64,000 nt of DNA from Pseudarthrobacter sp. PS3-L1 (GTDB lineage Bacteria > Actinomycetota > Actinomycetes > Actinomycetales > Micrococcaceae), in the NCBI RefSeq assembly GCF_030063285.1, contig NZ_JASISU010000005.1, positions 62,001 to 126,000 of the forward strand, given 5' to 3'. A program made the translations under genes and the position numbers. Of this stretch, positions 5,869 through 28,036 are shown one piece after another. A model generated the notes under the pieces. The model saw only the letters and a program-made list of their open reading frames with translations, made no database searches and was not told the origin of the DNA. Position 1 is the stretch's first letter, and each line of letters begins with the position of its first letter.

Positions 5869-5869
5869 T

Positions 5870-7569: not shown

Positions 7570-7575
7570 GAGTCC

Positions 7576-7581
7576 AGCCTA
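7576..7581 (-). promoter_or_regulatory. -10 box of a leaderless promoter for the DUF3515 gene
   Basis: On the reverse strand TAGGCT is followed by six bases (GGACTC) and then the ATG at 7569. This TANNNT-N6-start spacing is characteristic of leaderless actinobacterial mRNAs. No clear -35 or Shine-Dalgarno sequence is present. Confidence 0.5.
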
Positions 7582-7744
7582 ACGGTGGTGGGGGCATGCC
7601 ACCGTAGGGGGCCAACCGGGCCAATCTCCTTGTGTATTGGTGTGGAGTATAATGAGAAACTGTGCGTATCATCGGCCAGACTTTGGCTTGGCGCAAGTCT
7701 CAGGGGAACTATCAATCGTACTTAGCGTGGGGGAGGAACCGACC

Positions 7745-12308: not shown

Positions 12309-13179
12309 TCTGGACTACATTCCGGGAACTCCGGCAGTCGTTATAGACAAAGTTTCGATGACTTACCAGACAACAAGTAGACCTCGTGAAACCGAATCTG
12401 AACCTAAGCCAGAAGGACACTCCGGCGGAAGCAAAATGCGATCGCGTAACGTTGAGATCCTTGCCCTTAAGCCGACATCGCTAGTTGTGGAACACGGCGA
12501 ATCAATAGGGATCATCGGACGCAACGGTTCTGGCAAAAGTACTTTACTGAAATTGGTGGGTGGACAGATACCACCGACCAGCGGCGCTGTATATGCGACC
12601 TCTACGCCTGTCATGCTGGGTGTCAATGCCGCATTGATACCTGGTCTTTCCGGAGATCAGAATATAGTCCTAGGCTGTTTGGCAATGGGGATGACACACC
12701 AAGAAATCAACAAGCGATATTCCGAGATCGTAGAACTTTCAGGACTTGAGGATGCAGTCCACATGCCGATGAAATCGTACTCGGCGGGTATGGGGTCTAG
12801 ACTTCGCTTCGCGATTGCGGCGGCTATCGATCCAGAGATTCTCATTATCGATGAGGCGCTGAATACTGGCGATGCTCAGTTCAAGGACCGCACTAGGACA
12901 AAGATGTTGGAACTACTTGACCAGGCGGGAACTGTTTTTTTAGTCAGTCACAGCATGCCTACCATTGCTGATCTGTGTAATCGGGTGATCTGGTTGGACA
13001 AAGGTGAACTCATTGCAGATGGTGAACCTGCAATTGTAATAAAGTCCTATCGGATGTTCGCCAAGAAGCTTGCTGCGAAGGACCGTGCCGGTGCGATGGC
13101 GTTCAGACGTCGAATGGTTCGAAACCTTAAGATTGCTGACGTGACTGACCGAAGTCAGCTGAGGAGGTCAAAGCAATGA
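12292..13179 (+). CDS. Polysaccharide ABC transporter, ATP-binding subunit (Wzt/TagH-like)
   Basis: A 295-aa ABC ATPase partnering the permease. Walker A is GRNGSGKST (about residues 76-84), the signature is YSAGMGSRLRFAIA, Walker B is ILIIDEAL and the switch His is in FLVSHSM. A polar insert of about 30 residues (PRETESEPKPEGHSGGSK) sits between the first strand and Walker A, where Wzt/TagH proteins usually have a polar loop. The protein stops shortly after the nucleotide-binding domain, so the C-terminal glycan-binding domain of O9a-type Wzt is absent. ATG at 12292 follows GGGTGAGGAAACAT; the frame extends upstream to 12256. The stop overlaps the next gene by 4 bp. Confidence 0.92.
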   Translation: MDAKSDLDYIPGTPAVVIDKVSMTYQTTSRPRETESEPKPEGHSGGSKMRSRNVEILALKPTSLVVEHGESIGIIGRNGSGKSTLLKLVGGQIPPTSGAVYATSTPVMLGVNAALIPGLSGDQNIVLGCLAMGMTHQEINKRYSEIVELSGLEDAVHMPMKSYSAGMGSRLRFAIAAAIDPEILIIDEALNTGDAQFKDRTRTKMLELLDQAGTVFLVSHSMPTIADLCNRVIWLDKGELIADGEPAIVIKSYRMFAKKLAAKDRAGAMAFRRRMVRNLKIADVTDRSQLRRSKQ

Positions 13180-15089
13180 AATTTCGACTTTCATCTACTA
13201 GGAAGCTGCTCTGGCATTTTAGAGCAGGCGGTGCCAAACAGGTCAAGGTGTGGCTAGAACGAGAAAGTCACCAGGCTGGATTTCGGAAGATAGAAACACT
13301 CAGGGGGGCTGAAGGCGCTTGGGTTGGACGCGGTAAGAATAAGCAACTTACTTTTAGGCCTATGAATTTAGATGCCATTGAACTTATCGGTGGAGGCAAG
13401 CCAAGTGTAGGTGTAATTCTCGATGAATTTTCACTGATTGGTTTCTCCTTTGAATGGAACTGCATTCCACTTTCGCCTGCTAATTGGCGGCAAGAATTGG
13501 ATTCTCAGGCTGTAGATTTCGTTTTTGTCGAATCAGCATGGAGAGGAAGCGAGGGTCGTTGGGCCGGGAAGATTGCCAGAACTTCGAATCCCATGATCCT
13601 TTCCGAGCTGACCAAATGGTGCAGGCGACATGAAATTCCAACTATTTTTTGGAATAAGGAAGATCCACCTCACTATGAAGATTTTCTTCCAGCTGCGCGT
13701 CTTTTTGACTACGTATATACAAGTGATGCCAATAAGCTACCTGACTATCAGCGGGATCTTGGTCATAACAATGTAGACGTCCTAGCTTTTGCAGCACAGC
13801 CATTAGTTCACAACCCGATTCGGCCTGCCGCAGGGTGGCACGAACGCGACGTTGCGTTTGGAGGCATGTACTTTACTGAAAAATATCCAGAACGCCAAGA
13901 CCAAATGGACCTGCTCTTGGGCGCAGCCACTAAGGCTTCAAGAGCGATGGACACCGGTCTGGAGATTTTTTCTCGGCAGCGTTCCGACGATCCGCGATAT
14001 TCTTTCCCTCCAGCACTGGAGGAGAGAGTCGTTGGGTCCCTGACATACCCTCAGATGCTTACGGCTTACAAGGCGTACAAGACGTTTCTGAACGTGAACT
14101 CCGTTGTCGATTCGCCGACCATGTGTTCCAGGAGAGTTTTCGAGATTATTGCGGCCGGCTCTGTCGTAGTCACGACCGCCAGCCGCGCCATTGAAACGTA
14201 TTTCAAACCGGATGAGATATTTGAAGTCTCGAGTTCTGGCGAGGCGGATTCCTTGCTGCGTGCTCTTCACCGGAATCAGGATATTGGCGACCGTCAACTC
14301 CACCGTGGACAACGTAAAATCTGGCAAGAACACACGTATGCACTGCGTAGTGAACAGATTATTAAAGCCGCTGTACCCAAATTTCATCGAGAAGCAACTC
14401 GGCGTGCGTCCATCTCGGCTCTCGTTCCAACCATACGACCTTGGCAGCTAGAGCATGTCTTTAGGACGATTGCGAGCCAACGTAATGTCAATGTTGAACT
14501 AGTTCTACTGACTCACGGATTCTCTGTCAAAACTAAAAAAATCGATGAATTAAAAGCAATGTTTGGTTTAGCAAAAGTGTCAGTTATCAAAGCAGAAAAG
14601 CATATTTCTCTTGGGGAATGCTTGAACCTTTGCATTGAGGCTGCCGAGGGCGAAGTTTTGGCAAAGATGGATGATGACGATTTCTACGCTCCCGACTATC
14701 TAAGTGATCAGCTTTATTCTTTAGAGTACTCGCGGGCTGACATTGTGGGTAAGCAAGCCCACTACATGCATCTTGAGTCCCGTAATACGACAATCCTTCG
14801 ATTTCCTTCGTGGGAACACCGGTACACTCGAACCGTCATGGGGCCGACGTTGATGGGCTATAGCAGTGTGTTCACAAGTAGTGGGTTCGCACCTATTGGC
14901 TCTGGCGAAGACACACGCTTCCTCAAGGATGTGTCCGAGCAAGGCGGAGTGATTTACGCGGCTGATCGGTTTAACTACTGTCAGCAGCGCAACTCTCAAG
15001 GGCACACGTGGAAGATCAGCGACGATGAGCTGCTGGCCACTGGAGATTTCAAATTAATTGGAGACTACCGGGACCACGTCTCGGTCTAA
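13176..15089 (+). CDS. Two-domain glycosyltransferase: CgeB-like GT-B plus GT-A (GT2)
   Basis: This 637-aa protein combines two transferase modules. Residues about 65-400 are a CgeB/YkvP-like GT-B domain (VFVESAWRGSEGRW, IPTIFWNKEDPPHYEDFLP, the donor half with NSVVDSPTMCSRRVFEI). Residues about 410-637 are a GT2-type GT-A domain (ISALVPTIRPWQLEHVFRTI, then AKMDDDDFYAPDYL). The acidic metal/donor site is Asp499-Asp502. Domain order matches residues about 656-1135 of the 1466-aa protein at 16402, implying duplication. The gene starts in the ABC ATPase stop and ends 13 bp before wecC. Likely role: adding two sugars to the exported glycan; substrates unknown. Confidence 0.82.
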   Translation: MKFRLSSTRKLLWHFRAGGAKQVKVWLERESHQAGFRKIETLRGAEGAWVGRGKNKQLTFRPMNLDAIELIGGGKPSVGVILDEFSLIGFSFEWNCIPLSPANWRQELDSQAVDFVFVESAWRGSEGRWAGKIARTSNPMILSELTKWCRRHEIPTIFWNKEDPPHYEDFLPAARLFDYVYTSDANKLPDYQRDLGHNNVDVLAFAAQPLVHNPIRPAAGWHERDVAFGGMYFTEKYPERQDQMDLLLGAATKASRAMDTGLEIFSRQRSDDPRYSFPPALEERVVGSLTYPQMLTAYKAYKTFLNVNSVVDSPTMCSRRVFEIIAAGSVVVTTASRAIETYFKPDEIFEVSSSGEADSLLRALHRNQDIGDRQLHRGQRKIWQEHTYALRSEQIIKAAVPKFHREATRRASISALVPTIRPWQLEHVFRTIASQRNVNVELVLLTHGFSVKTKKIDELKAMFGLAKVSVIKAEKHISLGECLNLCIEAAEGEVLAKMDDDDFYAPDYLSDQLYSLEYSRADIVGKQAHYMHLESRNTTILRFPSWEHRYTRTVMGPTLMGYSSVFTSSGFAPIGSGEDTRFLKDVSEQGGVIYAADRFNYCQQRNSQGHTWKISDDELLATGDFKLIGDYRDHVSV

Positions 15090-15102
15090 ATAGGGGTTTT
15101 AT

Positions 15103-16350
15103 ATGAATACGATCGAAAATGTAGCTGTTATTGGGTTGGGGTACATCGGTCTGCCCACTGCTGCCATTCTGGCGGCCAACGGTATAACTGTGACGGGAGT
15201 TGATGTCAACGATCGTACGATCGAAGCGGTTAACCGCGGCGAGGTTCCGTTTGTTGAGCCTGACTTGTCTTCGTACGTTGCAGGGGCCGTGAGTCAGAAC
15301 AAGCTCTCTGCCTCGAAGGACACTCCCGAAGCACAGGCGTACATCGTGGCGGTGCCAACGCCCTTTAACCCTGACTACACAGTCGATGTTAAATACATCA
15401 AGGCAGCCGCAACGAACATAGCGCCAAAGCTGTCCGGTGGAGAGCTAGTGATTCTTGAGTCGACCTCTCCTCCTGGAACGACCCAGTTGATGGGTGATTT
15501 CTTGATAGCGCTACGTCCTGACCTGAGCCTTGACGGTGCTGATGGAAAACCTGCAATTCATGTTGCCCACTGCCCCGAACGTGTTCTGCCGGGTCGAGTC
15601 ATGATCGAGCTAGTGACAAACGACCGCATCGTTGGCGGGTTGACGGAGGAAGCTGCCCAACTTGCAAAGCACTTGTATGCCGTGTTCTGCCAAGGCGAAA
15701 TCCTCATCACGGACGCTGCAACTGCCGAGATGGCGAAGCTTGTCGAGAATTCGTACCGCGACGTCAACATCGCATTTGCCAATGAGCTTTCGGTCATCAG
15801 CGACAAACTCGGTATCAACGTGTGGGAGCTCATTCGTTTGGCGAATCACCACCCACGCGTCAATATCCTCCAGCCGGGACCTGGCGTCGGTGGGCACTGT
15901 ATCGCTGTCGATCCGTGGTTTATTGTTGCTGCAGCTCCAGAAGAATCGCAGTTGATTAAGCAGGCCCGAATAACAAATGATCAGAAGCCTGACTGGGTTG
16001 TTGACCGAACGATGCGCGCGGTAGAGGGCATTGATAGCCCAGTCATAGCGGTCCTTGGCCTGGCCTTCAAAGCCAATATTGATGATCTCCGGGAGTCGCC
16101 TGCCGTTGCGATCGTGGAGAAGCTGAGTCGGAAGCTCAGCACCGCAGATCTAAGCGTCGTCGAACCCCATGTTAAGGAACTCCCGAAGCAGCTGGTCGAC
16201 CTGCAAAATGTGTCTCTCGCTGAGCTGGAGTCATCAATATCCTCGGCTGACGCCGTGCTCCTCCTTGTGGATCACGATGATTTCAAAGAGTTTGATCGAA
16301 CTCTGCTCGAGGGTAAACATATTATCGACACTCGCGGTGTCTGGCAGTAG
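15103..16350 (+). CDS. wecC: UDP-N-acetyl-D-mannosamine dehydrogenase
   Basis: A 415-aa UDP-sugar dehydrogenase that oxidises UDP-ManNAc twice to UDP-ManNAcA using NAD+. The Rossmann motif VAVIGLGYIGLPTAAILA is at residue 8. The middle block has EMAKLVENSYRDVNIAFANE. The catalytic Cys266 lies in GPGVGGHCIAVDPWF, and the C-terminal GLAFKANIDDLRESPA is typical. The WecC rather than Ugd assignment is supported by wecB in the facing arm of the same locus. ATG follows AGGGG (ATAGGGGTTTTAT). A ManNAcA-containing surface polysaccharide is the natural inference. Confidence 0.92.
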   Translation: MNTIENVAVIGLGYIGLPTAAILAANGITVTGVDVNDRTIEAVNRGEVPFVEPDLSSYVAGAVSQNKLSASKDTPEAQAYIVAVPTPFNPDYTVDVKYIKAAATNIAPKLSGGELVILESTSPPGTTQLMGDFLIALRPDLSLDGADGKPAIHVAHCPERVLPGRVMIELVTNDRIVGGLTEEAAQLAKHLYAVFCQGEILITDAATAEMAKLVENSYRDVNIAFANELSVISDKLGINVWELIRLANHHPRVNILQPGPGVGGHCIAVDPWFIVAAAPEESQLIKQARITNDQKPDWVVDRTMRAVEGIDSPVIAVLGLAFKANIDDLRESPAVAIVEKLSRKLSTADLSVVEPHVKELPKQLVDLQNVSLAELESSISSADAVLLLVDHDDFKEFDRTLLEGKHIIDTRGVWQ

Positions 16351-16401
16351 ATCCAAAAGATACCGCTGTAGTCATACCATGAGCTTGGTTAGGGATTTCT
16401 T

Positions 16402-19400
16402 ATGAAGCATCCGGATGAAATAGTTCAAACCTCCGCAGTCCAATTGGCTAAACGTCGACAGTATGCACAGGATATCGACGCATTGATAGCTGATTATGAG
16501 CGGCTCCTTATCGAAGAGAAGTCCCTAACCGAAGCCTCAGCCCGGCTCACCAGTGAACTTGCACGAATGAGACGGGGACGTGATACCTATAAATCGGCTG
16601 AAATAGCTCTTGCGGCGGAAAATCGGACACTGAAGGAAAAGCTCAGATCTCTGCGTGGATCTAAGACCATGAAGATTGGCCGGTTGGTCACCGCTCCGAT
16701 ATCCAAAATCCGGACATTGCCCCATATTGCCCAATCCTTAGTTGTTTCCAATAGCGGTGAGTCGTCCACGCTCAAAAAAGGCAACACGGCACAAGTCGAA
16801 AATATTACGCCGGTCAAAAGGGAAACAAAGCCAGATTCTACATCGTCTATTTCGATCGATGATCTAGAGGCTGAATTCAGCAAGAATCCCTCCAGGGGAA
16901 GCCTGTTCCGGCTCATATCATATGAGTATTTTACCCTCGGACGCGTACTTTCCCCGGCCGACAAAATTAGTCTCAATTCCGAACTTCTTGAGAATAGTTC
17001 GAAAAAAGAATCTCTTGTTATTCAAAACATAATTGGCCAAAGTCTCCTGCTTCGGCGTAAACCGTTTCTTCCTCCGCGGCAATCCAACTACGGATTTTTA
17101 CCGGAACGCGGACGCATTATGTATTGCGCCCATAGTACTGCAAGTTATAACAGCAATGGATATTCAACGAGAACCGCCGGACTAGTTACCGGACTAACTG
17201 CGAATGGAGAGGATGTCTTTGTCGCTGCGCGTCCAGGATATCCTTGGGACGCAAGGACTGATAAGCCCGCGCTCAAAGACAGGCGTTTTGAAGAGTCAAT
17301 AGGCGGCGTTACTCATGTTTTCAATCCAGGACCGAGTTGGACGGGTGACAGGCTCGATTATTATTTGGCTGAGTCGGTGGACGTTTATGTTAGGGAAGCC
17401 CAGAGAAACCGTGCCTCTATCATTCATGCCGCGTCGAACTTCATAACAGCTTTGCCTGCTCTTATTGCAGCACGTAGATTGGGGATTCCATTTGTCTACG
17501 AGGTTCGGGGTCTATGGGAAATTACGGACCTCTCTTCAAGGCCAGATTGGTTCTCATCTGACAGGTTCAGGTTATCTGCGGAATTGGAATCGTTTGTCGC
17601 TCAGGAAGCAGACTCGGTACTAGCAATTACAAGCCAAGTAAAAAATGAACTTGTTCGACGTGGAGTTCCAGAAAGCAGCATAGAACTACTGCCCAATTCC
17701 GTCGATACAGATATTTTTACGTCCATGCCGTCATTGCCAGGCTTAAAGACGGCCTTGAAGATTGACGAAGAGGCTGTTGTTATAGGCTACTCAGGAAGCC
17801 TTGTAGCCTATGAGGGTTTGGACGATCTTCTAGTAGCCGTGAGTCTCATGGTCAAAGATTCCGAAAATATCCATCTGGTGATTGTTGGAGATGGAAAGCA
17901 TCTCGCTGGACTAAAGGCGTCGGTTGCTGAACTTGGAATTAGTGACTTTGTCACGTTCACTGGACGCGTTAGTGCTTCAGCTGTTCCCAATTACATCAGC
18001 ATATTCGACATAATGCCCTGTCCACGGACATCCCTTCCCGTGACAGAAATGGTTTCTCCTCTTAAACCGCTTGAGGCTATGGCGAGTGGGAAGGCAGTTG
18101 TTCTTACGGATCTGGCGCCACTCCGTGATCTGGCTGGAATTGGGCAAGAACGGGCTTTGCTATGTGAACCAAGCAATCCCGCGTCATTGGCTAAGGCCAT
18201 CCGAACTTTAGTTGACTCTCAAGAGCTTCGCCTTTCTATGGGCCGGCGAGCAAGACTATGGACTATTCAAGAACGCACATGGAAGAAAACCGGTCGGATA
18301 GCTTCAATTTGTCACGAACGATTACAAACTGATCGTGCATTCATAGACTACCGAACCCTGCTGAGCCCAAAGAACCTTCGGATAGGCATCATTTCTGATG
18401 ACTTCACTATGGCCGGTCTGAGACCAGAAGCTGACTTCGTGGTTCTAGATCCTGACACCTGGAGGCAACAGATTGAAGAATCTCCGATTAGTGCGCTATT
18501 TGTAGAGTCTGCGTGGGAAGGGGCCAATGGTGCTTGGAGAGGTAAAGTTGGTTTTTATGGGGATAGCGAATTCGAAGTGCTTCGGTCTTTACTGCGCTAC
18601 TGCAATAAACTATCCATTCCTACACTTTTCTGGAATAAAGAGGATCCTGTTCACTTTAACCGGTTTAGAGTTACGGCAAAATACTTCGATCATGTTTTTA
18701 CTACAGATTCTGACTGCATCAGGCCGTACTGGAAAAACGCTGGTGGCCTACTAAAGACAGTCGCCTCACTTCCTTTTTATGCGCAGCCTTTCTTGCACAA
18801 CATCCTCCCTTCCGAGAGGCAATATGAACATTCGGTCAGTTTTGCAGGTTCATTTTATGGAAAAAAGTATGCAAAACGATCATCCGAATTGGTGACAATT
18901 CTAGATTCTGCTAAGAGTCATGGACTTGTTATATACGACCGACAACACCTAAATTCGGAAAGCCCGTATCGCTTTCCCGAATCTCTATCGTCCTATGTGC
19001 GGGGTGGACTGGACTATATGGAAATGGTGCAGGCTTACAAAGCGCACCCGGTTCACATTAATGTAAATTCTGTTTACAATTCTCCGACAATGTTTTCACG
19101 CAGGGTTATGGAACTGGCAGCATCTGGAGCAGGAACGATAAGTGGAGCCGGAAGGGGTGTCGAGGAAATTTTTGGGGGCCTTGTGCCCGTGGTCGAAAAC
19201 GGTAAAGATGCAAAACTCCTCGTCGATGAATGGATGTCCAACGAGACCGTACGAATGCGTGACGCCTGGATGGCGTACCGGCTTGTTCACAGATCGCACA
19301 CTGCAGCGCATCGAATTACTTATGCGTTGAGGACAGCTGGATTTAGTGTTGCCGCACCAGAACGGCATCGCTATGCAGTGTACTTGGACAAGCTTTCGGC

Positions 19401-20802
19401 AACAGATGTTGAGGATCTGTGCAGACAAACGGTGAGGCCCGTTTCGATATATTCCTGTGATCCCGATGTAGAAAAAGTGGAGTCGACTATTCCTCTCGTA
19501 TTTGCAACGAGTATGGAAGATGCTTTGGCTAAAGCTCGATTTATAAACGTTGAATTCGTCGGAACTTGGGCGCCTGGACTTGATGATAGGACTGTCTTCG
19601 AGGATCTGCTTAGTGCGGCATCTTTTGGTGATTGGATGAGCCTTGGCTATTCGGAGGAAAATCTTGCAGTAAGAGGATTAGGCCTCGCTCAGCTTGCCAC
19701 ACATGATTCGACATTGCCGTTTCTGAAATCGGTACGACTCATTACGGGTGGGAAGGATCTAGTTCTCCGGCGACATCTTCGTCGACGCGAGAAGGCTTCA
19801 AGTATTCTGCATAAATGTCGACCTTCCAAAGCGATTCTAATTGCAGGACATGATTTAAAATTCGCACAGGATCTCATTGTGGGCTTGGAATCGGTGGGAA
19901 ATACTGTTCTGATCGACGAATGGCTAGATCATAACAAACATGATGAAGTCAAAAGTAGGGTTCTCCTAGGCCAAGCTGATGTGATCTTCTGCGAGTGGGC
20001 TCTAGGTAATGCTGTTTGGTTCTCTCACAATAAATCCCCAAATCAGCGTCTAGTGATAAGACTTCATTTGCAGGAGATAACTCTCCCGTTTCTCGAGCGT
20101 ATCAATTTTGCTTCTGTTGACGAGATAATATTTGTAGGTCAGCATATTCTCGATATTGCCGTACGTGATCACAATGTACCGTTATCCATATGCCGCGTAG
20201 TCGGCAACTCAGTGAAAACCAAGGACCTTGACCTTGCTAAGAAGGTAGATTCAAGATTCAATATCGGATTTGTTGGGATGGTTCCAGCTCGTAAAAGGCT
20301 GGACCTAGCCCTCGAGGTTTTGAAGGAGCTTCGTCGAGTTGACGATCGGTACAAGCTATTTGTGAAGGGAAAAAGACCGGAAGAATTTGCTTGGATGACA
20401 AAGCGGCCCGACGAGATGGCCTATTATCAGAATGAGTATGAGCGGATAGCGAGTGATTCGCTGTTGATAGGCTCTGTTACATTTGATGCCCAGGGATCTG
20501 ATATGGAGGAGTGGTATTCGAAGATCGGCCATGTGATTTCTACAAGCGATTTCGAGTCTTTCCATCTGACGATTGCCGATGGTGCAGCGTCTGGTGCCGT
20601 ACCTGCAAGTCTTGCTTGGCGGGGTGCTGATCAAATATATCCGTCGAGTTGGCTCCACGCGTCAGCCACAGAAGTAGCAGAGTCAATTATTGCCGCGAAT
20701 AGAAGCTGGGCCCAGAATTCTGAATCTGCCAAGAATTTCGTAAAGTTGAATTATGGTTCGGACATCATAATTCCGAGTCTCATCCGGTCAATCGTGAGTT
20801 AG
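16402..20802 (+). CDS. Giant multidomain glycosyltransferase (coiled coil, GT4, CgeB-like, degenerate GT-A, GT4-like)
   Basis: A single 1466-codon frame. Residues about 20-90 form a coiled coil (LIADYERLLIEEKSLTEA, AAENRTLKEKLRSL). Residues about 237-645 are a GT4 domain (PFVYEVRGLWEITDL, SPLKPLEAMASGKAVV) like that of the 9673 gene. Residues about 656-990 are a CgeB-like GT-B (LFVESAWEGANGAWRG, TLFWNKEDPVHFNRF) like that of the 13176 gene. Residues about 990-1135 sit where 13176 has its GT-A domain but lack a DDDD-type metal site (WAPGLDD instead). Residues about 1133-1466 are another GT-B-like domain (FNIGFVGMVPARKRLDLALE, STSDFESFHLTIADGAASG). It may add several sugars processively. Composition is AT-rich, and the start at 16402 is preceded only by a weak ribosome-binding site (TTAGGGA). 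Confidence 0.85.
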   Translation: MKHPDEIVQTSAVQLAKRRQYAQDIDALIADYERLLIEEKSLTEASARLTSELARMRRGRDTYKSAEIALAAENRTLKEKLRSLRGSKTMKIGRLVTAPISKIRTLPHIAQSLVVSNSGESSTLKKGNTAQVENITPVKRETKPDSTSSISIDDLEAEFSKNPSRGSLFRLISYEYFTLGRVLSPADKISLNSELLENSSKKESLVIQNIIGQSLLLRRKPFLPPRQSNYGFLPERGRIMYCAHSTASYNSNGYSTRTAGLVTGLTANGEDVFVAARPGYPWDARTDKPALKDRRFEESIGGVTHVFNPGPSWTGDRLDYYLAESVDVYVREAQRNRASIIHAASNFITALPALIAARRLGIPFVYEVRGLWEITDLSSRPDWFSSDRFRLSAELESFVAQEADSVLAITSQVKNELVRRGVPESSIELLPNSVDTDIFTSMPSLPGLKTALKIDEEAVVIGYSGSLVAYEGLDDLLVAVSLMVKDSENIHLVIVGDGKHLAGLKASVAELGISDFVTFTGRVSASAVPNYISIFDIMPCPRTSLPVTEMVSPLKPLEAMASGKAVVLTDLAPLRDLAGIGQERALLCEPSNPASLAKAIRTLVDSQELRLSMGRRARLWTIQERTWKKTGRIASICHERLQTDRAFIDYRTLLSPKNLRIGIISDDFTMAGLRPEADFVVLDPDTWRQQIEESPISALFVESAWEGANGAWRGKVGFYGDSEFEVLRSLLRYCNKLSIPTLFWNKEDPVHFNRFRVTAKYFDHVFTTDSDCIRPYWKNAGGLLKTVASLPFYAQPFLHNILPSERQYEHSVSFAGSFYGKKYAKRSSELVTILDSAKSHGLVIYDRQHLNSESPYRFPESLSSYVRGGLDYMEMVQAYKAHPVHINVNSVYNSPTMFSRRVMELAASGAGTISGAGRGVEEIFGGLVPVVENGKDAKLLVDEWMSNETVRMRDAWMAYRLVHRSHTAAHRITYALRTAGFSVAAPERHRYAVYLDKLSATDVEDLCRQTVRPVSIYSCDPDVEKVESTIPLVFATSMEDALAKARFINVEFVGTWAPGLDDRTVFEDLLSAASFGDWMSLGYSEENLAVRGLGLAQLATHDSTLPFLKSVRLITGGKDLVLRRHLRRREKASSILHKCRPSKAILIAGHDLKFAQDLIVGLESVGNTVLIDEWLDHNKHDEVKSRVLLGQADVIFCEWALGNAVWFSHNKSPNQRLVIRLHLQEITLPFLERINFASVDEIIFVGQHILDIAVRDHNVPLSICRVVGNSVKTKDLDLAKKVDSRFNIGFVGMVPARKRLDLALEVLKELRRVDDRYKLFVKGKRPEEFAWMTKRPDEMAYYQNEYERIASDSLLIGSVTFDAQGSDMEEWYSKIGHVISTSDFESFHLTIADGAASGAVPASLAWRGADQIYPSSWLHASATEVAESIIAANRSWAQNSESAKNFVKLNYGSDIIIPSLIRSIVS

Positions 20803-21067
20803 GTGGATTGTACGGTGCCTAATTCGAAGAAACTAGGTATGCGCCGAAGCTAATTCTCTCTAATTCGGGTGTATCTTCAACTTTGCGCATCAGCATAATT
20901 TGATATGGCTTGGAATTATTTTAGGCTTCTGTTCTATTTCTATCCCCAATGTTCTGTCAGCTTGTGAAACTAGCGAGGTACTTCGTACGCTGGGGCTTCG
21001 TCAAGGTTGGGTGCCCACTGAGGGCCAGGCCTTGGAGTCACGGACCGAGAGGTGTGCTTCGGAACGG
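20803..21067. other. AT-rich intergenic stretch, no gene seen
   Basis: This 265-bp gap between the giant transferase and the DUF6270-like gene holds no credible coding frame on either strand. The short forward frame at 20949-21179 runs into the next gene in a different frame and has no codon-use support. The only recognisable element is the -10 box at its right end. Confidence 0.5.
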
Positions 21068-21073
21068 TAGAAT
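21068..21073 (+). promoter_or_regulatory. -10 box of a leaderless promoter for the DUF6270-like gene
   Basis: TAGAAT, then six bases (AGCTGT), then the ATG at 21080. It is a near-consensus -10 with leaderless spacing and no Shine-Dalgarno sequence, so the gene probably has its own promoter separate from the upstream operon. Confidence 0.55.
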
Positions 21074-21079
21074 AGCTGT

Positions 21080-21790
21080 ATGGGAAACATCTTCATCTAC
21101 GGTGGCTGCGTTACGCGTGACACTTATGAGCACTTGGTTGGCCACACTCTCCTTGAGTATGTGGCCAGGCAGTCTCTGATAAGCGCCAATTCTCCTGCTA
21201 CTAAAATGTTAGGAGCAGGAGAGCTTGCTTCCCCATTTCAAAGTCGATCTCTAAATGGGGATGTCGACTCGGTATTATTCTCAAAAGTTAGGAGTCGGTC
21301 ATCTGAGGTCGATCTGGTCCTTGTCGATCTTTTGAGTGAGAGACTTGGTGTCTTTGCACTTCCAGACAAAACCTATATAACTCATTCAGTTGAGTTGAAA
21401 AAGAGCGGGCGTTTGGGAGATTTAAAACCACCTTTGGTAAAGTTTGGTACGGATAAACATTTTCACTTGTGGAGACGTGGGATGCTCAAATTTGCGAGAG
21501 TTCTAGAGTCCCGGGGGCTTCTTGAAAAGACTCTCGTATTTGACACTCCGTGGGCAGAGTTTACTGATTCAGGTGAAGAAGTCCCCCTATTCAGGAACAT
21601 ATCGGCAGTCGAGGCAGGATTGCTGTATGTTCGTTACTATTCTTTTATTGAAGAATTGGGTATACGTGTCGTGAGACTCCCAGTTGAGCTTGCAATTTCA
21701 ACTGAATCTCATAAGTGGGGCGTCGCGCCCTATCACTATATTGAATCTGCATATCTTTGGATGAGGGACCGAGTGTACGAAAATGTCTAA
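21080..21790 (+). CDS. DUF6270-like protein
   Basis: A 236-aa cytosolic protein (no signal peptide or membrane segment) that looks like DUF6270, a family of unknown function seen in actinobacterial and other glycan loci; the family name is recalled, not searched. It opens IFIYGGCVTRDTYEHL and ends HKWGVAPYHYIESAYLWM. These N-terminal G-G-C and C-terminal H-W-G-x-A-P blocks are placed like the first and last motifs of SGNH hydrolases (speculative). It is clearly homologous to residues 1 to about 235 of the 945-aa protein at 22844: shared RQSLISA, [KR]FGT..HF.[LI]W, and H.WG.APY. It closes the rightward arm of the polysaccharide locus. Confidence 0.75.
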   Translation: MGNIFIYGGCVTRDTYEHLVGHTLLEYVARQSLISANSPATKMLGAGELASPFQSRSLNGDVDSVLFSKVRSRSSEVDLVLVDLLSERLGVFALPDKTYITHSVELKKSGRLGDLKPPLVKFGTDKHFHLWRRGMLKFARVLESRGLLEKTLVFDTPWAEFTDSGEEVPLFRNISAVEAGLLYVRYYSFIEELGIRVVRLPVELAISTESHKWGVAPYHYIESAYLWMRDRVYENV

Positions 21791-21818
21791 AGTGTTTTCG
21801 TTTGTAATGCTCGAGAGC

Positions 21819-22779
21819 TTCTAGGAACGGTTGTTGTGATTCATGAATGTTGAGGATCGCTTCGATGAGGCATTTGTGAACGTTTATATCTGATCCTAGG
21901 TTCGAGCGTTTCCTCGGAGTTAGTTGATGCTATCTGGCACTCCACTTGATGCATGAAGTCATCCGAAGAGTTGACGTTTGCCGATGCTCTTCGATCCTGG
22001 CATCGAAAGTCTTTGTATAGGTGGGGGATATCAGCCTTTTACCAAGTGTATTCGCTATCAATTACGGCTTACCAGAAAGTATGCAGGACCCCTACTAAAA
22101 GTGAATATGGTTTGGGGTGTTTTTCCACTGACTGCAGTGGTTCACCTATGGACGGTCTTGAAGTTAACCAGCTTTTCGTCTCGGGAGTACAGCGTCAGCC
22201 ACTACGGTGATCTTTCGGTGGCGATTTCGTTTCGTCTAAGGGGGGCTTCGTACTATATCCTCCACGGTTTAGGGTCCGCCGCAATGGCGACGTGCGCCTG
22301 GAGCGGATTTTACGCTTCGTCTTGAGTACGCGCTGATCGTTCCCTTTGCAGGCCTGGGCTATTTCCTGAGTTTCGTAGCAAATCGCTGGCCGTTGTCCTT
22401 GAGAGCTAGTTCTCGGGACCTATCTGGTGAAGGCATCACTCAGAGATGAAGGCCCACCATTGGTGCATATGATGAGCCATGGTGCGTCGGCGGCCAGACT
22501 GCATGGACTTCCATCTGGGCTGGCCCGTAAAGCGACACACGCCGGTGCCAGTCTGGGTTCTGAGATGAGAATGGTTGTTCGGGACCAGAACCCAAGAAGT
22601 AGCTCATCGCGGCCTAGGCGCGTTCATGACCAGGTCCCGTTAGACCACGCCACGGAGAGAGCTTGCGGAGCTAGTAGAGGCTGTGCCACTGAACTCAGTG
22701 CCAGCATGTTGACTTGCATTCTGCAGCCCAAGGGAGGAGTGGGATAGCGTTGGTACGCCGATAACTATTTCTAGGAACG
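21819..22779. repeat. 11-bp direct repeat flanking the gene-less region
   Basis: TTCTAGGAACG occurs at 21819-21829 and 22769-22779, in the same orientation, 950 bp apart. Each copy lies just past the 3' end of one of the two convergent DUF6270-containing genes. It could be a target-site duplication, a recombination scar, or chance. Confidence 0.4.
21960..22450 (+). pseudogene. Possible decayed membrane-protein gene
   Basis: Hydrophobic, membrane-helix-like translations occur in different forward frames: VNMVWGVFPLTAVVHLWTVL (around 22100-22160) and LEYALIVPFAGLGYFLSFVA (from 22321). They are separated by stops and frame changes. This is what a frameshifted membrane-protein gene would look like, for example an acyltransferase or polymerase of the polysaccharide locus. 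No family is recognised, so the call is tentative. Confidence 0.22.
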
Positions 22780-22843
22780 CACTTTAGGGCGTAACAGGAT
22801 TCATCACATAATTAGCGTGGACAAAACAAGCGCCGATGCCCCG

Positions 22844-25681
22844 CTAGGACACGTCCTTGGATTTTGCCCTTGAAACAACGACTCCATTTCTACGCACCAT
22901 TGCTCGGACAGTAAGACCTCTTTTTTGAGTCTTGAACTCGACCACATCAGAATGGCTATACCATTTCGTTTCGAGTTGAGTTGATCCCCTCAGCAAGACG
23001 TAGGCAATCTTGTGTGAATCATCATAAACTCGAGAAAAGTTACTGCTGACCCTTACTGACTGCAGGTCAATCCTTCGAAGATTGACAACAAAAACTCGGG
23101 AAAGCGGCTTGGACGTATACGCTTTTGATATCGACTTAGAAAGGTCCTTCTCAATAAGGGTCCTAAGTAAAGCAGCTTCGCCCTCTGCTGCGAAACCTTC
23201 GTATCTCTTATCAATTGAATGATCTTTTGACTGTCCAGATAGATTTGACTGGCGTCGCATATATGCGAATGTTGGCTGATTATCTCTTATGAGGTTGAGG
23301 CGTATACGTCTTCGTGAGAATCTTTCGACCGATTCCTCATCAATCCGTTCGGGAATCGACCAAGGGCTAAATTGAGAAATCTCATCTATACTTTGACTAG
23401 GGATAATAAAAAACTTATTGCCTGGAATTACGCGACGAAAATCAACAAATTCTGCTGTGGCCCGGTCTGGGTTGCTACTAACAATGTAGGACCTGTAGAG
23501 ACCGGCAGCGCTCACTTGTTCTGGATTCTGGAGGTAGAGCTGGTCAGCAATAGCCTTTACTTGATTTAAGTGGTTTGGAAGGAAGAAATCGTCATCGTCC
23601 ATCGAGATGCGTATTACGTAGTCATACTTTTCGAACGAAAATCCAAGGCTAGCATCCTCAAACAAGAGTTCACGTCGCCCAGGTTGTTTGTTTGGGTTAA
23701 CCCTTAGATCGGGGTGTGAGCTCGCCAGTTCCCCGTACCCTTCAACCGGATGATCATAGAAGTGGATCTGACTCTTCCATCGCTCCAATTTCGGAAGTTG
23801 AGCCATAATCTCATTAATAGCCTCGATAAATTGCTTTTTGTCTCTAGACAAGTGCACTGTAAAAATGACATCGGTTTTATTGATATCTTTTTGCGCTGAT
23901 AGACCAGCAACGGATGTCCTGAACCTATCGATGTAGCTGCTGACAATTCTATTGTCGGTTTCAGCATCGCATATTATGACATCGAGCCATATCATTGAGA
24001 CAGGAGCCTTTTCCGGTCCAATTTCAGTGACGGCGGGTTCTTCGGAGATACCAAGTGTGGCGGCAGGCGGAATGACTATTTCACTAAGGTTTTGCCCCCA
24101 GCTTTCTAGTGCAGAGTCAATAAAAGGGTTCATCACGAGCCGGTAAGGCATGTTGTGTCCGCTTGCGAAGTGGTCAACCACTATACGAGTATTTCCGTCT
24201 TTGGAATTACCCGAAACCGGGGCTAGTCCAAGCGGCTTGATGTAAGGGGTCAGATGTCGTTGGATATGGTGTGGATCATCATCATTTTGTACAATGATCG
24301 CTTGACGAGTGTGATCGTTCGCTAGGTGCCCAGTAATTTTTACTCGTGCGCCCAGTGTTTCGAGAGCCTGGAGGGAACTTGTCTCTGGATAGAGAGCATG
24401 CCTATATGATTCAACTGCACTCCGCCAATACCGTAAAATATCAGTTTGCGGATTAAAAGCAAGGGCCCTGCTGTTGGGTACCAATGATGATAGGCGGAGG
24501 GATGCGAAACCTCCACCTGATCCTCCGACGAAAAGGAGCTTCTTAATGTGGAGTTTATTGACAGTGTTTTCAATAAGGCGAGAGTAGCGGAGCGTAAGAT
24601 CATCTGACTCTGTGCCCGTGAACCAGGCGAGGTTTAGTTTATCGTCGATCTCCAGTGCAGTATCCGCGAGAAACATAATATTTTCCTCGCGTTCACGAAG
24701 CGTTGCAAACGATTCAAATCGTGGAATAACGTGTTTTGGTCTCGTTTGCGCACCATGACTCACTACGACCAGGGTGTCTGAAGGATTTGTTATTAGAAGA
24801 AATTCAAGTGAAAGCGACTCATCGGGCGACTTTGGTCTGATTATGTTGTGAGTGCGAGTCTTCGGTAAAAAGCTCGTGTCTTCTATTGAGTTCCAGTATT
24901 GAATCGGCGAATCATATCTGAAATCCCAAGACGCAAACTTTGGCGAATTTGATTTCTGTACTTGCAACACGTTGAAGAATTTTTGTCCTAGAACTTTGTA
25001 CACTGATTCGTGAAAGTTGTAGGGCGCTCGACCCCAGGGATGATCTGATGCAGCAAGCGTTTCGGAGAGTTTTATCCTCTTTATTCCAAGTGAACAAATA
25101 TAGTCTGTGTATTTCTTGAAGTTTCTATTTGCGGTATCCGAGGAATCGCCAAAGGCAAGTTCGACACTTTTCGCATTTTCGTCTTCCGAGGCCCAAGAAA
25201 CATCTAAAAGGATCGTTAAATCGAGTAAGCTACTTTTTTCCAGTTCATTTATGAACCATCTCGCCGCCGTTTTCCATATCTCAAAATGTGCAGCGGTTCC
25301 AAACTTAAGGGTGCGCTGTACTTCAACATTTGTATCAATCTGTTGGAGGCGTTCTGGAGTTCTCGTGATGTATCCACCAGTGGTAAGAAGATCGACCCCG
25401 AACCGCTCGTCAAACAGGTCAAAAAGAAGATAATCTGTTTTGCTCCGAATTTCGGAAATTGATTTCTTGAGGGAGCCGGTAATGTCCCCAAATAGATTCC
25501 GAGAAGCGGCCCCGCTGGAATTTCTGATCAGATCTTGCTGCACTGAAGCAACACCAGACATTGCACTAATGAGAGACTGCCGCTCAACGGATCCAACTGA
25601 CTTGAGTCTCAGGTCTGGATAATTGGCTGCTAATTGCTTCGCCGGGCCGCTTCCGTAGGTAAAGACATTGATTGAGTCCAT
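22844..25681 (-). CDS. Trimodular protein: DUF6270-like, alpha/beta-hydrolase-like, GT-A glycosyltransferase
   Basis: A 945-aa protein with three parts. Residues 1 to about 235 are DUF6270-like and homologous to the 21080 product. Residues about 280-530 look like an alpha/beta-hydrolase (DTLVVVSHGAQTRPKHVIPR, then the nucleophile elbow KLLFVGGSGGGFASLRL with Ser388). Residues about 570-900 are a GT-A-type domain (WLDVIICDAETDNRIVSSYI, YVIRISMDDDDFFLPNHL) with acidic site Asp695-Asp698, resembling rhamnosyltransferase-like families. No signal peptide or membrane segment was seen, so it should act in the cytosol. The ATG lies two bases after the wecB stop, so it is co-translated with wecB. It may both add and modify glycan residues; this is inferred. 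The family-level calls for the first two domains are tentative. Confidence 0.8.
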   Translation of the reverse strand: MDSINVFTYGSGPAKQLAANYPDLRLKSVGSVERQSLISAMSGVASVQQDLIRNSSGAASRNLFGDITGSLKKSISEIRSKTDYLLFDLFDERFGVDLLTTGGYITRTPERLQQIDTNVEVQRTLKFGTAAHFEIWKTAARWFINELEKSSLLDLTILLDVSWASEDENAKSVELAFGDSSDTANRNFKKYTDYICSLGIKRIKLSETLAASDHPWGRAPYNFHESVYKVLGQKFFNVLQVQKSNSPKFASWDFRYDSPIQYWNSIEDTSFLPKTRTHNIIRPKSPDESLSLEFLLITNPSDTLVVVSHGAQTRPKHVIPRFESFATLREREENIMFLADTALEIDDKLNLAWFTGTESDDLTLRYSRLIENTVNKLHIKKLLFVGGSGGGFASLRLSSLVPNSRALAFNPQTDILRYWRSAVESYRHALYPETSSLQALETLGARVKITGHLANDHTRQAIIVQNDDDPHHIQRHLTPYIKPLGLAPVSGNSKDGNTRIVVDHFASGHNMPYRLVMNPFIDSALESWGQNLSEIVIPPAATLGISEEPAVTEIGPEKAPVSMIWLDVIICDAETDNRIVSSYIDRFRTSVAGLSAQKDINKTDVIFTVHLSRDKKQFIEAINEIMAQLPKLERWKSQIHFYDHPVEGYGELASSHPDLRVNPNKQPGRRELLFEDASLGFSFEKYDYVIRISMDDDDFFLPNHLNQVKAIADQLYLQNPEQVSAAGLYRSYIVSSNPDRATAEFVDFRRVIPGNKFFIIPSQSIDEISQFSPWSIPERIDEESVERFSRRRIRLNLIRDNQPTFAYMRRQSNLSGQSKDHSIDKRYEGFAAEGEAALLRTLIEKDLSKSISKAYTSKPLSRVFVVNLRRIDLQSVRVSSNFSRVYDDSHKIAYVLLRGSTQLETKWYSHSDVVEFKTQKRGLTVRAMVRRNGVVVSRAKSKDVS

Positions 25682-25683
25682 TA

Positions 25684-26853
25684 TCAGGAAGTGAAAACTT
25701 TCTCATTGGATGCTAAACCGAATTCACCAATTCGTTTTCCCGTTCCCAGCAACTCAGCGATGGCTGCCACGGTTCGTTCTGCAGCCCTGCCATCGCCGTA
25801 GGGGTTGACGGCGTTGGCCATGGTGTCAAAATGATCTTGATCATTGAGGAGACGTTGAACTTCGGTGACTATGCGGTGCTCATCAGTACCAATGAGGGTG
25901 ACTGTTCCTGCATCGACAGCCTCGGGACGCTCGGTGTTATCGCGCATGACCAGAACCGGCTTTCCAAGGCTGGGAGCCTCCTCCTGAACTCCACCGGAGT
26001 CAGTCAACACAATGTGGGCCAGTGAGAGCATACGGGTGAATTCACCGTACGCAAGAGGTTCGGTCACGATCACGTTGGGCTTGCCCTCAATGGCCGGGAG
26101 CACTGCTTCGCGGACGATCGGATTTTTGTGGGCGGGGAGGACGATGACCAGTTCCGGGTCCGCATCGGCAATACGCGCAAGGGCACGGCCCACTCCACGC
26201 ATTGCATCGCCTTGGTTCTCGCGGCGGTGTGTTGTGACCAAAAGGATGCGCCGGCCACTTGCTGCCAGCTCCTCGAGCTGAGGATCAGAAAAGGGGATTT
26301 CTTTGCCAACGGTAGTCAGGAGCGCATCGATTACTGAGTTGCCACTGACCACGACGTCTTCCTCCCGGACGCCTTCTGCCAGCAGGTTGCCCTTGCTGAC
26401 GCTGGTAGGAGCAAGGTGCAGGCTGGCGATCTGGCTGGTGATCTTGCGGTTCGCTTCTTCGGGGAACGGAGAAAAGAGATCCCCACTGCGAAGTCCGGCC
26501 TCAACGTGTACTACTGGGATGCCGTGATAGAAGGCTGCAATAGCACCGGCCGTGGAGGTGGTGGTGTCGCCCTGCACGATAACGGCATCGGGCTTAGTGG
26601 TTGCAAAGAGCTTGTCCAGTCCATCAATGGTGCGCGTCATGATCGCCGAGAGCGACTGACCTGGCTGGAGAATGTTCAGATCGTGGTCAGGAACGATGCC
26701 GAAGAGATCATTGACCTGGTCCAACATCTCGCGGTGTTGGCCGGTTACAGTGACAAAACAGTCAAAATCTGGGGATTCCTGCAGGGCGATGACGATGGGA
26801 GCCATTTTTATGGCTTCCGGACGTGTTCCGAAGATAGGCATGATGACAGGCAT
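25684..26853 (-). CDS. wecB: UDP-N-acetylglucosamine 2-epimerase (non-hydrolysing)
   Basis: WecB (389 aa) interconverts UDP-GlcNAc and UDP-ManNAc in the cytosol. The family blocks are all present: FGTRPEAIKMAPIV, VTGQHREMLDQV, VVHVEAGLRSGDLFSPFPEE, and LTDSGGVQEEAPSLGKPVLV followed by MRDNTERPEAV. A GGGGGA ribosome-binding site precedes the ATG at 26853. Together with wecC in the facing arm it gives a complete UDP-GlcNAc to UDP-ManNAcA route. It is the first gene of the leftward arm. Confidence 0.96.
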   Translation of the reverse strand: MPVIMPIFGTRPEAIKMAPIVIALQESPDFDCFVTVTGQHREMLDQVNDLFGIVPDHDLNILQPGQSLSAIMTRTIDGLDKLFATTKPDAVIVQGDTTTSTAGAIAAFYHGIPVVHVEAGLRSGDLFSPFPEEANRKITSQIASLHLAPTSVSKGNLLAEGVREEDVVVSGNSVIDALLTTVGKEIPFSDPQLEELAASGRRILLVTTHRRENQGDAMRGVGRALARIADADPELVIVLPAHKNPIVREAVLPAIEGKPNVIVTEPLAYGEFTRMLSLAHIVLTDSGGVQEEAPSLGKPVLVMRDNTERPEAVDAGTVTLIGTDEHRIVTEVQRLLNDQDHFDTMANAVNPYGDGRAAERTVAAIAELLGTGKRIGEFGLASNEKVFTS

Positions 26854-26896
26854 AGGTGTCCCCCGAAAGTGGCGAGTAAGTGATGCAACCCAACGA

Positions 26897-26902
26897 ACTT
26901 TA
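26897..26902 (-). promoter_or_regulatory. Candidate -10 box for the wecB arm
   Basis: Reverse-strand TAAAGT lies about 44 bp upstream of the wecB ATG, with a 10-bp palindrome GTAACGTTAC just upstream of it (around 26908-26917). Weak evidence by eye; no clear -35. Confidence 0.25.
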
Positions 26903-26946
26903 CGCGAGTAACGTTACGAACCCCCAAAATCGCGCCTTGTGCATCC

Positions 26947-27318
26947 TTAGGACAGCAGGATGACCGCGATAAGGAGTACTGGGATAGACACGCATGCAGC
27001 GATCAACAAGGACAGTGCCACCCGAAGTTTTACCGTCTGAGCGTCGGGCCGCTCCCGCTCACTGGTCTTGGAACGTTTAGATTTTCTTGCGCTTTGCGCT
27101 GGCTCAGAACCGGCGTCCTGGGCTGGGTTTTGACGCTTCCCGTTTAGCTGGGATACCGGAGCGCCCTCAACAGCCTCAAAGTGAATTTTTGCCGCGTAGT
27201 GGGCAGAAAAAGCGTTGCTGTCCACCGGGTGGAAGAGCCCCGCGGATTTGAGGTGGCGTGGCGCGGCAGGCAATGTCTGCTCTTCGCTGTCCATCACACG
27301 CTCCTTCGGTTCCGACAT
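26947..27318 (-). CDS. Small single-pass membrane protein, unknown function
   Basis: Not a recognised family. The 123-aa product from ATG at 27318 is polar and disordered-looking for about 95 residues (KSKRSKTSERERPD before the membrane segment). It ends in one hydrophobic helix (LRVALSLLIAACVSIPVLLI), suggesting a tail-anchored protein with a cytosolic N-terminus. AGGA lies 5 nt before this ATG; an in-frame GTG at 27333 is an alternative without a ribosome-binding site. A TAGAAT -10 candidate lies about 55 bp upstream. It may be co-directional with the DUF218 gene upstream. Confidence 0.6.
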   Translation of the reverse strand: MSEPKERVMDSEEQTLPAAPRHLKSAGLFHPVDSNAFSAHYAAKIHFEAVEGAPVSQLNGKRQNPAQDAGSEPAQSARKSKRSKTSERERPDAQTVKLRVALSLLIAACVSIPVLLIAVILLS

Positions 27319-27454
27319 AACGTCCTGTTCCACCCCAAGCCCTGCGTTTGCGGGCCTTTGGCGATTCTAGCGGCGCGAGCGCCCAGCCCACCATTCCAGT
27401 CCATGGACAAGACGCAGAGAAGACTCAGCGAAGACGCAGACACAAGATAGTGAT

Positions 27455-28036
27455 TCAGCGCCGAGGCCCGTCGCACTCGGGCCGCATCGATGCATCGAGC
27501 AACCCACCGGTCTCCACCACAAAACGCCACAACCAGTCGCCCGGTCCCATGGACGCTGGCGCTGGCACCATCTGTACCTCCGCCGTCGTACACTGCCTGA
27601 TCAGCCGCCCGGCGCGCGTGACGTGATAGTTGGAGGTGACCACCGAGACTGACCTCCAGCCATTAAGCTCGATCATCCGGGAGATAGCCAGCGCCTCACC
27701 ACGCGTATTCCTGGGGGCCGGCCGGAAACAGAGAAGGTCATCATCCGGGCGCTGCAGTGAGCCGCAGACGGAGTCTGCTGACACGTTGCCCTTGAGTCCC
27801 GTGGTGGCGAGCACCAGGACCGGAACATCGAATTCGGCCTGCAAAGCGCGCGCGGCAGGAAGCCGCTCCTCGGAATCCCCACCAAGCATGATCACCGCAT
27901 CTGTCCTATCCACCGCCAACGGCTCCACATTCACGAACAGTTGGACCGCCAGCAGCAACCACAGCGCAAAGCCACACAGCGCCACAATGAAGGCACGCTT
28001 GAGGGCGGTCTGGACCGCGCGGGGGGAAAGATGCAC
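27455..28036 (-). CDS. YdcF/SanA-like DUF218 membrane-anchored protein
   Basis: From GTG at 28036 the 193-aa product has an N-terminal membrane anchor (AFIVALCGFALWLLLAVQLF) and a DUF218 domain. The domain begins DAVIMLGGDSEERLPAARAL and continues RNTRGEALAISRMI and VSVVTSNYHVTRAGRLIRQC. DUF218 proteins act in the envelope, some in cell-wall precursor or vancomycin-related phenotypes, but the reaction is not established. The frame stays open upstream to 28435, but that part is antisense to thiL and not coding. Start choice rests on the anchor position and on an AAGACT -10-like box 7 nt upstream; it is uncertain. Confidence 0.75.
   Translation of the reverse strand: MHLSPRAVQTALKRAFIVALCGFALWLLLAVQLFVNVEPLAVDRTDAVIMLGGDSEERLPAARALQAEFDVPVLVLATTGLKGNVSADSVCGSLQRPDDDLLCFRPAPRNTRGEALAISRMIELNGWRSVSVVTSNYHVTRAGRLIRQCTTAEVQMVPAPASMGPGDWLWRFVVETGGLLDASMRPECDGPRR

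Follow-up and report, generated by a model that had tools for sequence, protein, structure and literature searches.

A probable O-acetyltransferase of the CsaC/Asp2 kind on one chain with a new GT-A-like domain in a putative Pseudarthrobacter polysaccharide locus

In Pseudarthrobacter sp. PS3-L1, one long open reading frame (ORF) joins a DUF6270-like domain, an alpha/beta-hydrolase-like domain and a candidate glycosyltransferase on a single chain directly behind a wecB-like gene, which raises the question of what such a chain would do to a glycan. The gene lies within a window of 64,000 nucleotides (nt; positions 62,001 to 126,000 of contig NZ_JASISU010000005.1), the whole stretch of DNA analysed here; window coordinates are used throughout, and P0001 denotes the product, of 945 amino acids (aa), of the ORF at 22844-25681. 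We put at about 0.65 the probability that P0001 is a cytosolic enzyme uniting a glycosyltransferase with an O-acetyltransferase of the CsaC/Asp2 kind, and that its substrate is a surface polysaccharide of the N-acetylmannosamine (ManNAc) type. Among Creative Commons (CC)-licensed PubMed Central papers, we found no relevant report of fused glycosyltransferase/O-acetyltransferase enzymes.

Module order and its conservation

As a preliminary description of the locus had stated, the chain is encoded in one ORF: translation gave 945 codons from an ATG on the minus strand, with no internal stop. That description counted three modules, and three enzyme-type modules are indeed present; together with a fibronectin-III-like tail at residues 864-942, which it had overlooked, P0001 comprises four, designated N, M, C and T.

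22844..25681, minus strand: N-M-C-T fusion protein, 945 aa, in one ORF, with a 957-aa orthologue in genome G859
24947..25681, minus strand: N module, residues 1-245, degenerate DUF6270 (PF19786); Pfam 126.7 bits; GSGPAKQ in place of the usual GSCVSRD
24092..24934, minus strand: M module, residues 250-530, alpha/beta-hydrolase-fold O-acetyltransferase-like; AlphaFold2, VIA-align and profiles
23093..24001, minus strand: C module, residues 561-863, predicted glycosyltransferase A (GT-A)-like domain of a rare unnamed family; Foldseek on a low-confidence model
22856..23092, minus strand: T module, residues 864-942, fibronectin-III-like beta-domain; found in 19 ORFs; VIA-align
25684..26853, minus strand: wecB-like uridine diphosphate N-acetylglucosamine (UDP-GlcNAc) 2-epimerase, directly upstream of the fusion gene; TIGR00236, 464.9 bits, E 1.8e-139

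An AlphaFold2 model of the whole chain, built from an alignment of 50 rows in which the ends of the N-only rows were in part wrongly aligned, had a mean predicted local distance difference test (pLDDT) score of 74.6. Values were mostly above 90 in M, mostly 70-96 in N and about 45-80 in C, falling after residue 720, and the joint between M and C appeared as a low-confidence stretch at residues 546-559.

Since a 957-aa orthologue with the same N-M-C-T order adjoins wecB in a second species of the genus (G859, 3 nt after wecB), the fusion is not an assembly artefact, and the orthologue equally rules out a chance ORF. P0001 and the G859 protein are 41.7% identical in N, 47.0% in M, 44.4% in C and 34.1% in T, with 2 of 15 residues identical in the linker; the combination, which is not known from a characterised enzyme, thus exists in a second genome. 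A frameshift or missed stop at the M-C joint was also rejected, as no stop is present and the joint is the same in G859, and Arthrobacter sp. Edens01 (L060) simply has two genes, namely N-M (591 aa) after wecB and then, 16 nt on, C-T as a gene of its own (390 aa), whose C module is 43.6% identical to that of P0001. In A. koreensis (L059), wecB and N-M are present and a search of the genome found no C. The fusion gene or its N-M counterpart stands directly after wecB in all four of these close loci (the window, G859, Edens01 and A. koreensis), and in the window only 2 nt separate the wecB end (25684) from the fusion ATG, both genes being on the minus strand; the coupling to wecB proposed in the preliminary description is therefore conserved.

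Linkage of M to C is recurrent. C was found in eight genomes (that of P0001, G859, Edens01 and five from the genus of Kocuria dechangensis), and in every one it is fused to M or lies directly beside it. In the five Kocuria-genus genomes, C terminates a heparinase-like protein (three) or stands as its own ORF (two), and an M gene follows directly. The module was recovered from 2 of 206 genomes in a genus-wide search (its own included), from 5 of 27 in the genus of Kocuria dechangensis and from 4 of 10 genomes reached via loci that had been picked for carrying M. Searches with a single sequence, in 297 genomes of the order and 396 of the phylum, and a six-row profile run on 396 order genomes, recovered the own copy alone, and the viral contigs searched held no C relative. 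Linkage of M to N is also recurrent, the two sharing one ORF in 11 of the 36 genome loci fetched by the M query, in both orders. It might be argued that chance or faulty assembly brought the modules together and that nothing links them in function, considering that C-T is a separate gene in Edens01 and that C was not found in the A. koreensis genome. However, we give this hardly any credence: the G859 orthologue, at 42-47% identity in each of N, M and C, goes most of the way to refuting it, and M stands with C in all eight genomes in which C was found.

The M module: fold and predicted active site

No Pfam family matched M (residues 250-530) above its cut-off. The solved structures in Foldseek's own match list were re-aligned with VIA-align, and the first four ranks for M were all entries of CsaC from Neisseria meningitidis serogroup A (PDB 6yuo, 6yuq, 6yus and 6yuv), with Z of 20.0-20.6 over 234-237 residues and a root mean square deviation (rmsd) of 3.1; M thus has the same alpha/beta-hydrolase fold. 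M is one part of a chain that also holds N, C and T; the solved CsaC chain (255 residues) consists of nothing but the acetyltransferase. Rank 5 was Gap2, of the Asp2 type (6oyc_B), with Z 19.4 over 328 residues, and the rows after it were esterases at Z 18.3 and below. The Gap2 alignment runs over model residues 1-529, i.e., N and M, which may suggest a similar two-domain layout, although its rmsd of 12.7 means that both domains are not superposed as a rigid body. By sequence profile (48 M rows against the PDB), the best matches were Asp2 (6lnw, E 2.8e-4) and CsaC (E 0.01), Asp2/Gap2 being the O-acetyltransferase of GlcNAc on serine-rich-repeat adhesins. NCBIfam models matched a few of 14 M relatives weakly: three matched the capsular polysaccharide biosynthesis family XcbB/CpsF (NF033892; best E 2.5e-4) and two matched Asp2 (TIGR03712; best E 4.9e-4). 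P0001 differs from Asp2/Gap2 in that it matched no NCBIfam model at E <=1, TIGR03712 included (nor did the M part from the window match one), and in that none of the 18 window ORFs scanned with Pfam is a SecA2/SecY2-type gene.

In CsaC, the triad Ser114-His228-Asp198 is described as bearing an added arm of His201 and Gln138, which is linked to positioning of the acetyl-enzyme; Q138A lost 96.8% of activity, and exchange of H201 more than 70% (PMC7501274). The corresponding residues of P0001 are given below with their frequencies among 48 distinct aligned M rows; CsaC S114 and Q138 were placed by the printed profile alignment, and the Asp and His equivalents by order and spacing.

24518..24520, minus strand: Ser388, predicted nucleophile, aligned to CsaC S114; S in 47/48 rows
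24446..24448, minus strand: Gln412, predicted triad extension, aligned to CsaC Q138; Q in 45/48 rows
24275..24277, minus strand: Asp469, predicted triad acid, equivalent to CsaC D198; D in 44/48 rows
24266..24268, minus strand: His472, predicted partner of Gln412, equivalent to CsaC H201; H in 42/48 rows
24155..24157, minus strand: His509, predicted triad base, equivalent to CsaC H228; H in 47/48 rows

Ser388 lies within GGSGGG, so the alpha/beta-hydrolase-like centre with a GGSGGG elbow that the preliminary description had recognised is borne out, and the Asp and His that should match the elbow serine are present and conserved. The spacings in P0001 also equal those of CsaC, with 24 residues from Ser388 to Gln412 and 3 from Asp469 to His472. 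Trp353, which aligns with CsaC Tyr79, occurs in all 48 rows. The three rows that lack Gln also lack His472 (one of them is a copy without Ser as well), and such joint loss would be expected if Gln412 and His472 touch.

The alpha/beta-hydrolase fold and the complete triad, with many esterases at Z 16-18, would suit a carbohydrate esterase as well, which would remove acetyl or other acyl groups, so that the chain builds a glycan and then trims it; CsaC itself is reported to hydrolyse measurably when no acceptor is supplied (PMC7501274). However, the best structural matches of M are acetyltransferases, the Gln/His extension is complete in 42 of the 48 rows, and genes for glycosyltransferases, UDP-GlcNAc epimerases and pyruvyltransferases are among the neighbours scanned around family members. 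Moreover, no signal or membrane segment is evident in P0001, whose top 19-residue hydropathy is 1.21, with at most 0.12 in the first 40 residues, compared with 2.50 for a permease from the same window used as a control. The lack of an evident export signal fits the use of cytosolic acetyl-coenzyme A (acetyl-CoA) and speaks against trimming outside the cell. Considering these results, we judge an esterase to be quite unlikely. Of the activities suggested in the preliminary description, in which the chain builds a glycan and acylates, deacylates or trims it, acylation is thus favoured by the CsaC-type structures, the active-site extension and the lack of an evident export signal, and M, rather than a 'hydrolase', is probably a CsaC/Asp2-like O-acetyltransferase.

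Several points weigh against this assignment. Foldseek's own E-value order puts CsaC at rank 21, below many other hydrolases; a 14-row M profile gave CsaC an E of 0.016 with several lipases above it, and the CsaC profile E-values (0.01-0.016) are not significant by themselves. Sequence identity between M and CsaC is about 10%, triads are common in alpha/beta-hydrolases, and esterases lie just ~2 Z units under CsaC. Within the active site, Trp353 replaces CsaC Y79, so that this contact differs; three further rows keep Gln but carry Asp in the His472 column; the Ser-to-Gln spacing, which is 24 in 31 of 45 rows, departs from that value in the other 14 (25 in 12, 23 in one and 26 in one); and the Asp-to-His spacing, 3 in 26 of 42 rows, is 2 in the remaining 16. 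CsaC R148, which is described as positioning the acceptor (PMC7501274), falls on Ala422 in P0001, judging by its spacing from the Gln. Since R148 is not kept, M is not filed as a CsaC orthologue, and its acceptor should therefore differ from that of CsaC; the donor and acceptor proposed for M are assigned by analogy with CsaC.

The replacement of R148 also gives room for M to transfer another acyl group, to use a donor other than CoA or to be a non-enzymatic docking domain, as the likeness to CsaC concerns the triad and its extension. In the same vein, Asp2 is described as bifunctional, serving in export as well as in modification (PMC5578698), and one aligned row (L080, 7914-8750) has lost both Ser and His. 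Near-invariance of Ser, Asp and His (47, 44 and 47 of 48 rows) argues against docking, and we consider this group of alternatives very unlikely.

The C, T and N modules and their other combinations

The motif that had been noted for C in the preliminary description, DDDD, is present as described; the GT-A domain named with it is matched at the level of fold, on a low-confidence model.

23588..23599, minus strand: DDDD, residues 695-698, candidate metal/nucleotide-sugar motif; in 8/8 members found

Modelled alone from three rows, C had a mean pLDDT of 61.3, with 70-87 by blocks over the first 90 residues. With this model, all eight chains that Foldseek returned at E <=0.001 were glycosyltransferases (best E 1.1e-4), namely XXYLT1 (four chains), COLGALT1 and its complex with LH3, PcManGT and the chondroitin polymerase K4CP; TarP and GnT-I came next, and further down glycosyltransferases were mixed with fibronectin-III domains that matched T. 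We take XXYLT1, COLGALT1, PcManGT, K4CP, TarP and GnT-I to be GT-A folds. The VIA-align table for the C model was filled by matches to the T module and is uninformative on the catalytic part. DDDD, NK, GNK, PW..PE and NLS occupy positions that are identical in 6/6 aligned members, and two members found later keep DDDD and NLS, L118 having GNR for GNK and L119 having VW for PW. These results suggest that C is a GT-A-like glycosyltransferase domain, an assignment made at the level of fold from a low-confidence model.

The same results leave room for doubt. C resembles GT-A glycosyltransferases in its core fold, as modelled with low confidence, and in the acidic DDDD, and differs from them in having no sequence match, a poorly predicted C-terminal half and a tail of another fold. 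No Pfam family matched above cut-off in 6/6 members, and searches of Pfam, NCBIfam (whole chain), PHROGs and the PDB yielded nothing above cut-off or convincing, so no sequence search tied C to a known glycosyltransferase. Residues 212-306 of the C model have pLDDT below 50, the TM-scores of the eight best matches are low (0.16-0.34), and the A. koreensis genome indicates that M does not depend on C everywhere. A GT-A-like binding domain, or some other enzyme that uses nucleotide sugars, would account for the missing family match and for the low confidence and low scores of the model. However, identity of the five motifs in all six aligned members is what an active site would be expected to show, and each of the top eight Foldseek chains is a glycosyltransferase; we therefore regard an inactive or differently acting C as unlikely. 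On this evidence, P0001 probably joins an acetyltransferase of the CsaC/Asp2 kind to a member of a new GT-A-like family.

T matched fibronectin-III structures in VIA-align with Z up to 9.9 over 84 residues. It occurs in the 19 ORFs of the fetched loci listed above, 18 of them distinct (one gene was fetched twice), and several of these also carry M, N, C or heparinase-like parts.

For N, the DUF6270-like domain of the preliminary description stands, with a match at residues 26-221 far above the Pfam cut-off (126.7 bits vs 27.5), but its degeneracy had been overlooked. The fetched loci contain 35 distinct DUF6270 domains, and a [GS]CxxRD start, a motif noticed in this analysis and not a published definition of the family, is retained in 30 of them. 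The five that have lost it belong to P0001, G859, Edens01, A. koreensis and Arcanobacterium (L091), and all five are ordered N-M; an HxWGxxPxH motif is also missing from the Edens01 and A. koreensis domains. L027 and L073, also counted as N-M order, retain [GS]CxxRD, and the M match of L027 is partial (E 9.9e-6). Since a motif kept by most DUF6270 domains is lost, N in P0001, as judged from its sequence, is tied to M but probably non-catalytic. A catalytic SGNH-like domain is likewise unsupported in P0001, the candidate motif being lost. We had also considered a WcbI-type CoA-binding protein, suggested by the GSC start, and rejected it because sequence support was lacking, the DUF6270 profile matching no such PDB chain; published work gives WcbI 310 residues and a mainly helical fold (PMC4104973). 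No mention of DUF6270 was found among CC-licensed PubMed Central papers.

M occurs alone, with heparinase-like domains and with a glycosyltransferase domain (L068). Heparinase-like parts together with M were confirmed by Pfam in L028 (12924-15815), L029, L069 and L072; another L028 protein (4377-7604) fell below the Pfam heparinase cut-off, and M proteins of similar size in L079 (3867-6671) and L084 (1007-3817) gave no match. In Kocuria-type genomes, heparinase-like proteins end in C (L108, L109 and L118) or in T alone (L119) and are followed by M genes; in L108, a pyruvyltransferase gene lies beside M. The genome of PS3-L1 itself has a second M on the same contig, outside the window, fused to a hexapeptide-repeat acyltransferase (543 aa; L023:14225-15856), and this protein is a combination of two unrelated acyltransferase folds. 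A Ramlibacter metagenome-assembled genome encodes DUF6270 (N), M, T and a methyltransferase, in that order, on one 915-aa chain (L073:7113-9860), and in L039 N is joined to a sulfotransferase. These named fusion partners point to glycan modification.

A. koreensis and Edens01 have a further protein matched by the M profile (L059:9031-10536 and L060:10153-11589), with GTSKGG and the Gln of APQ 24 residues past the Ser; it sits between a 1469-aa glycosyltransferase gene and the N-M gene, where the window has a stand-alone DUF6270 gene. Its sequence predicts a further active site of the CsaC kind within the one locus. Corynebacterium marambiense carries tandem M proteins (L080:7887-8753 and 8772-9638), of which the first lacks Ser and His and looks catalytically dead, while the second keeps the active-site residues. 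Related M domains are also encoded on plasmids of Paracoccus, Cereibacter, Gemmobacter and Citrobacter (six records) and in records from Methanobrevibacter, Desulfovibrio and Bordetella. Tentatively, and at somewhat less than even odds, M may represent a large unnamed family of alpha/beta-hydrolase-fold O-acetyltransferases with the Gln extension, occurring in records from Actinobacteria, Proteobacteria, Desulfovibrio and Methanobrevibacter and combined with modules of the DUF6270, heparinase-like, methyltransferase, hexapeptide-acyltransferase and glycosyltransferase kinds, with C as a new glycosyltransferase family tied to it, so that chain extension and O-acetylation would take place together for each repeat unit.

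The locus and the proposed function

The fusion gene shares its surroundings with other genes of polysaccharide synthesis, three of which are as follows.

15103..16350, plus strand: UDP-ManNAc dehydrogenase; NF008286, 562.3 bits vs a cut-off of 459
16402..20802, plus strand: 1466-aa multi-glycosyltransferase; Pfam; conserved in A. koreensis and Edens01
21080..21790, plus strand: stand-alone DUF6270 protein; Pfam 192.6 bits; CVTRD motif retained

The 1466-aa protein is 49% identical to its counterparts in the sister strains across nearly the full length. Further glycosyltransferases and an ABC-2 exporter with its ATPase complete the locus (~10-26 kb of the window), which we read from its gene content as a surface-polysaccharide locus with precursors that include ManNAc and N-acetylmannosaminuronic acid (ManNAcA). 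G+C content is 0.454 in the fusion gene and 0.474 in the 1466-aa glycosyltransferase gene, compared with 0.587 for the whole window and 0.654 in recG; the stretch 10000-26000 is an island poor in G+C (about 0.46-0.52) relative to its flanks (about 0.58-0.66), which suggests an exchangeable polysaccharide locus. Similarity of wecB to the Edens01 gene begins at 26868, 15 nt ahead of the listed ATG, and the true start may be further upstream. Between the convergent DUF6270 and fusion genes, ~1 kb (21791-22843) is without an ORF of at least 120 aa. A search of the window at E 1e-3 revealed no remnant of the 478/501-aa gene of the sister strains, an Rfam scan of 20000-28000 gave no match, and promoter and terminator patterns were no commoner than in shuffled sequence.

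In the mechanism that we infer, in which the acyl group is acetyl, CoA is its donor and both the sugars and all catalysis are predicted, C would bind a metal and a nucleotide sugar through DDDD and add a sugar to the surface polysaccharide, its precursors including UDP-ManNAc (from the coupled wecB) and probably UDP-ManNAcA. Ser388, helped by His509 and Asp469, would attack acetyl-CoA to form an acetyl-enzyme. The acetyl-Ser would be positioned by Gln412, itself held in place by His472 and probably Trp353, so that a sugar hydroxyl, and not water, takes the acetyl group. N would probably serve as a scaffold or in presenting the glycan, without catalysis of its own, and T would act as a beta-type accessory domain. 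The setting resembles that of CsaC, which is described as working with the UDP-GlcNAc 2-epimerase CsaA and the polymerase CsaB (PMC7501274). A parallel for coupling the two activities is offered by Asp2, where O-acetylation of GlcNAc is reported to prevent glucosylation at the same C6 (PMC7948813).

The CsaC paper asks whether an extra Gln is a general route from alpha/beta-hydrolase esterase to transferase, and points to uncharacterised proteins in which it is also found (PMC7501274). The alignment presented here bears on that question: it comprises 48 domains, and the Gln and its His are both present in 42. Some M domains are, moreover, fused to a glycosyltransferase-like domain beside a sugar-making epimerase gene, so that the enzyme and its likely acceptor pathway could be tested together. 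The ORFs shared with M also provide a functional lead for DUF6270, and C is a new glycosyltransferase-like family worth solving. If our reading is true, P0001 would be a natural test of how such transferases evolved from ordinary esterases.

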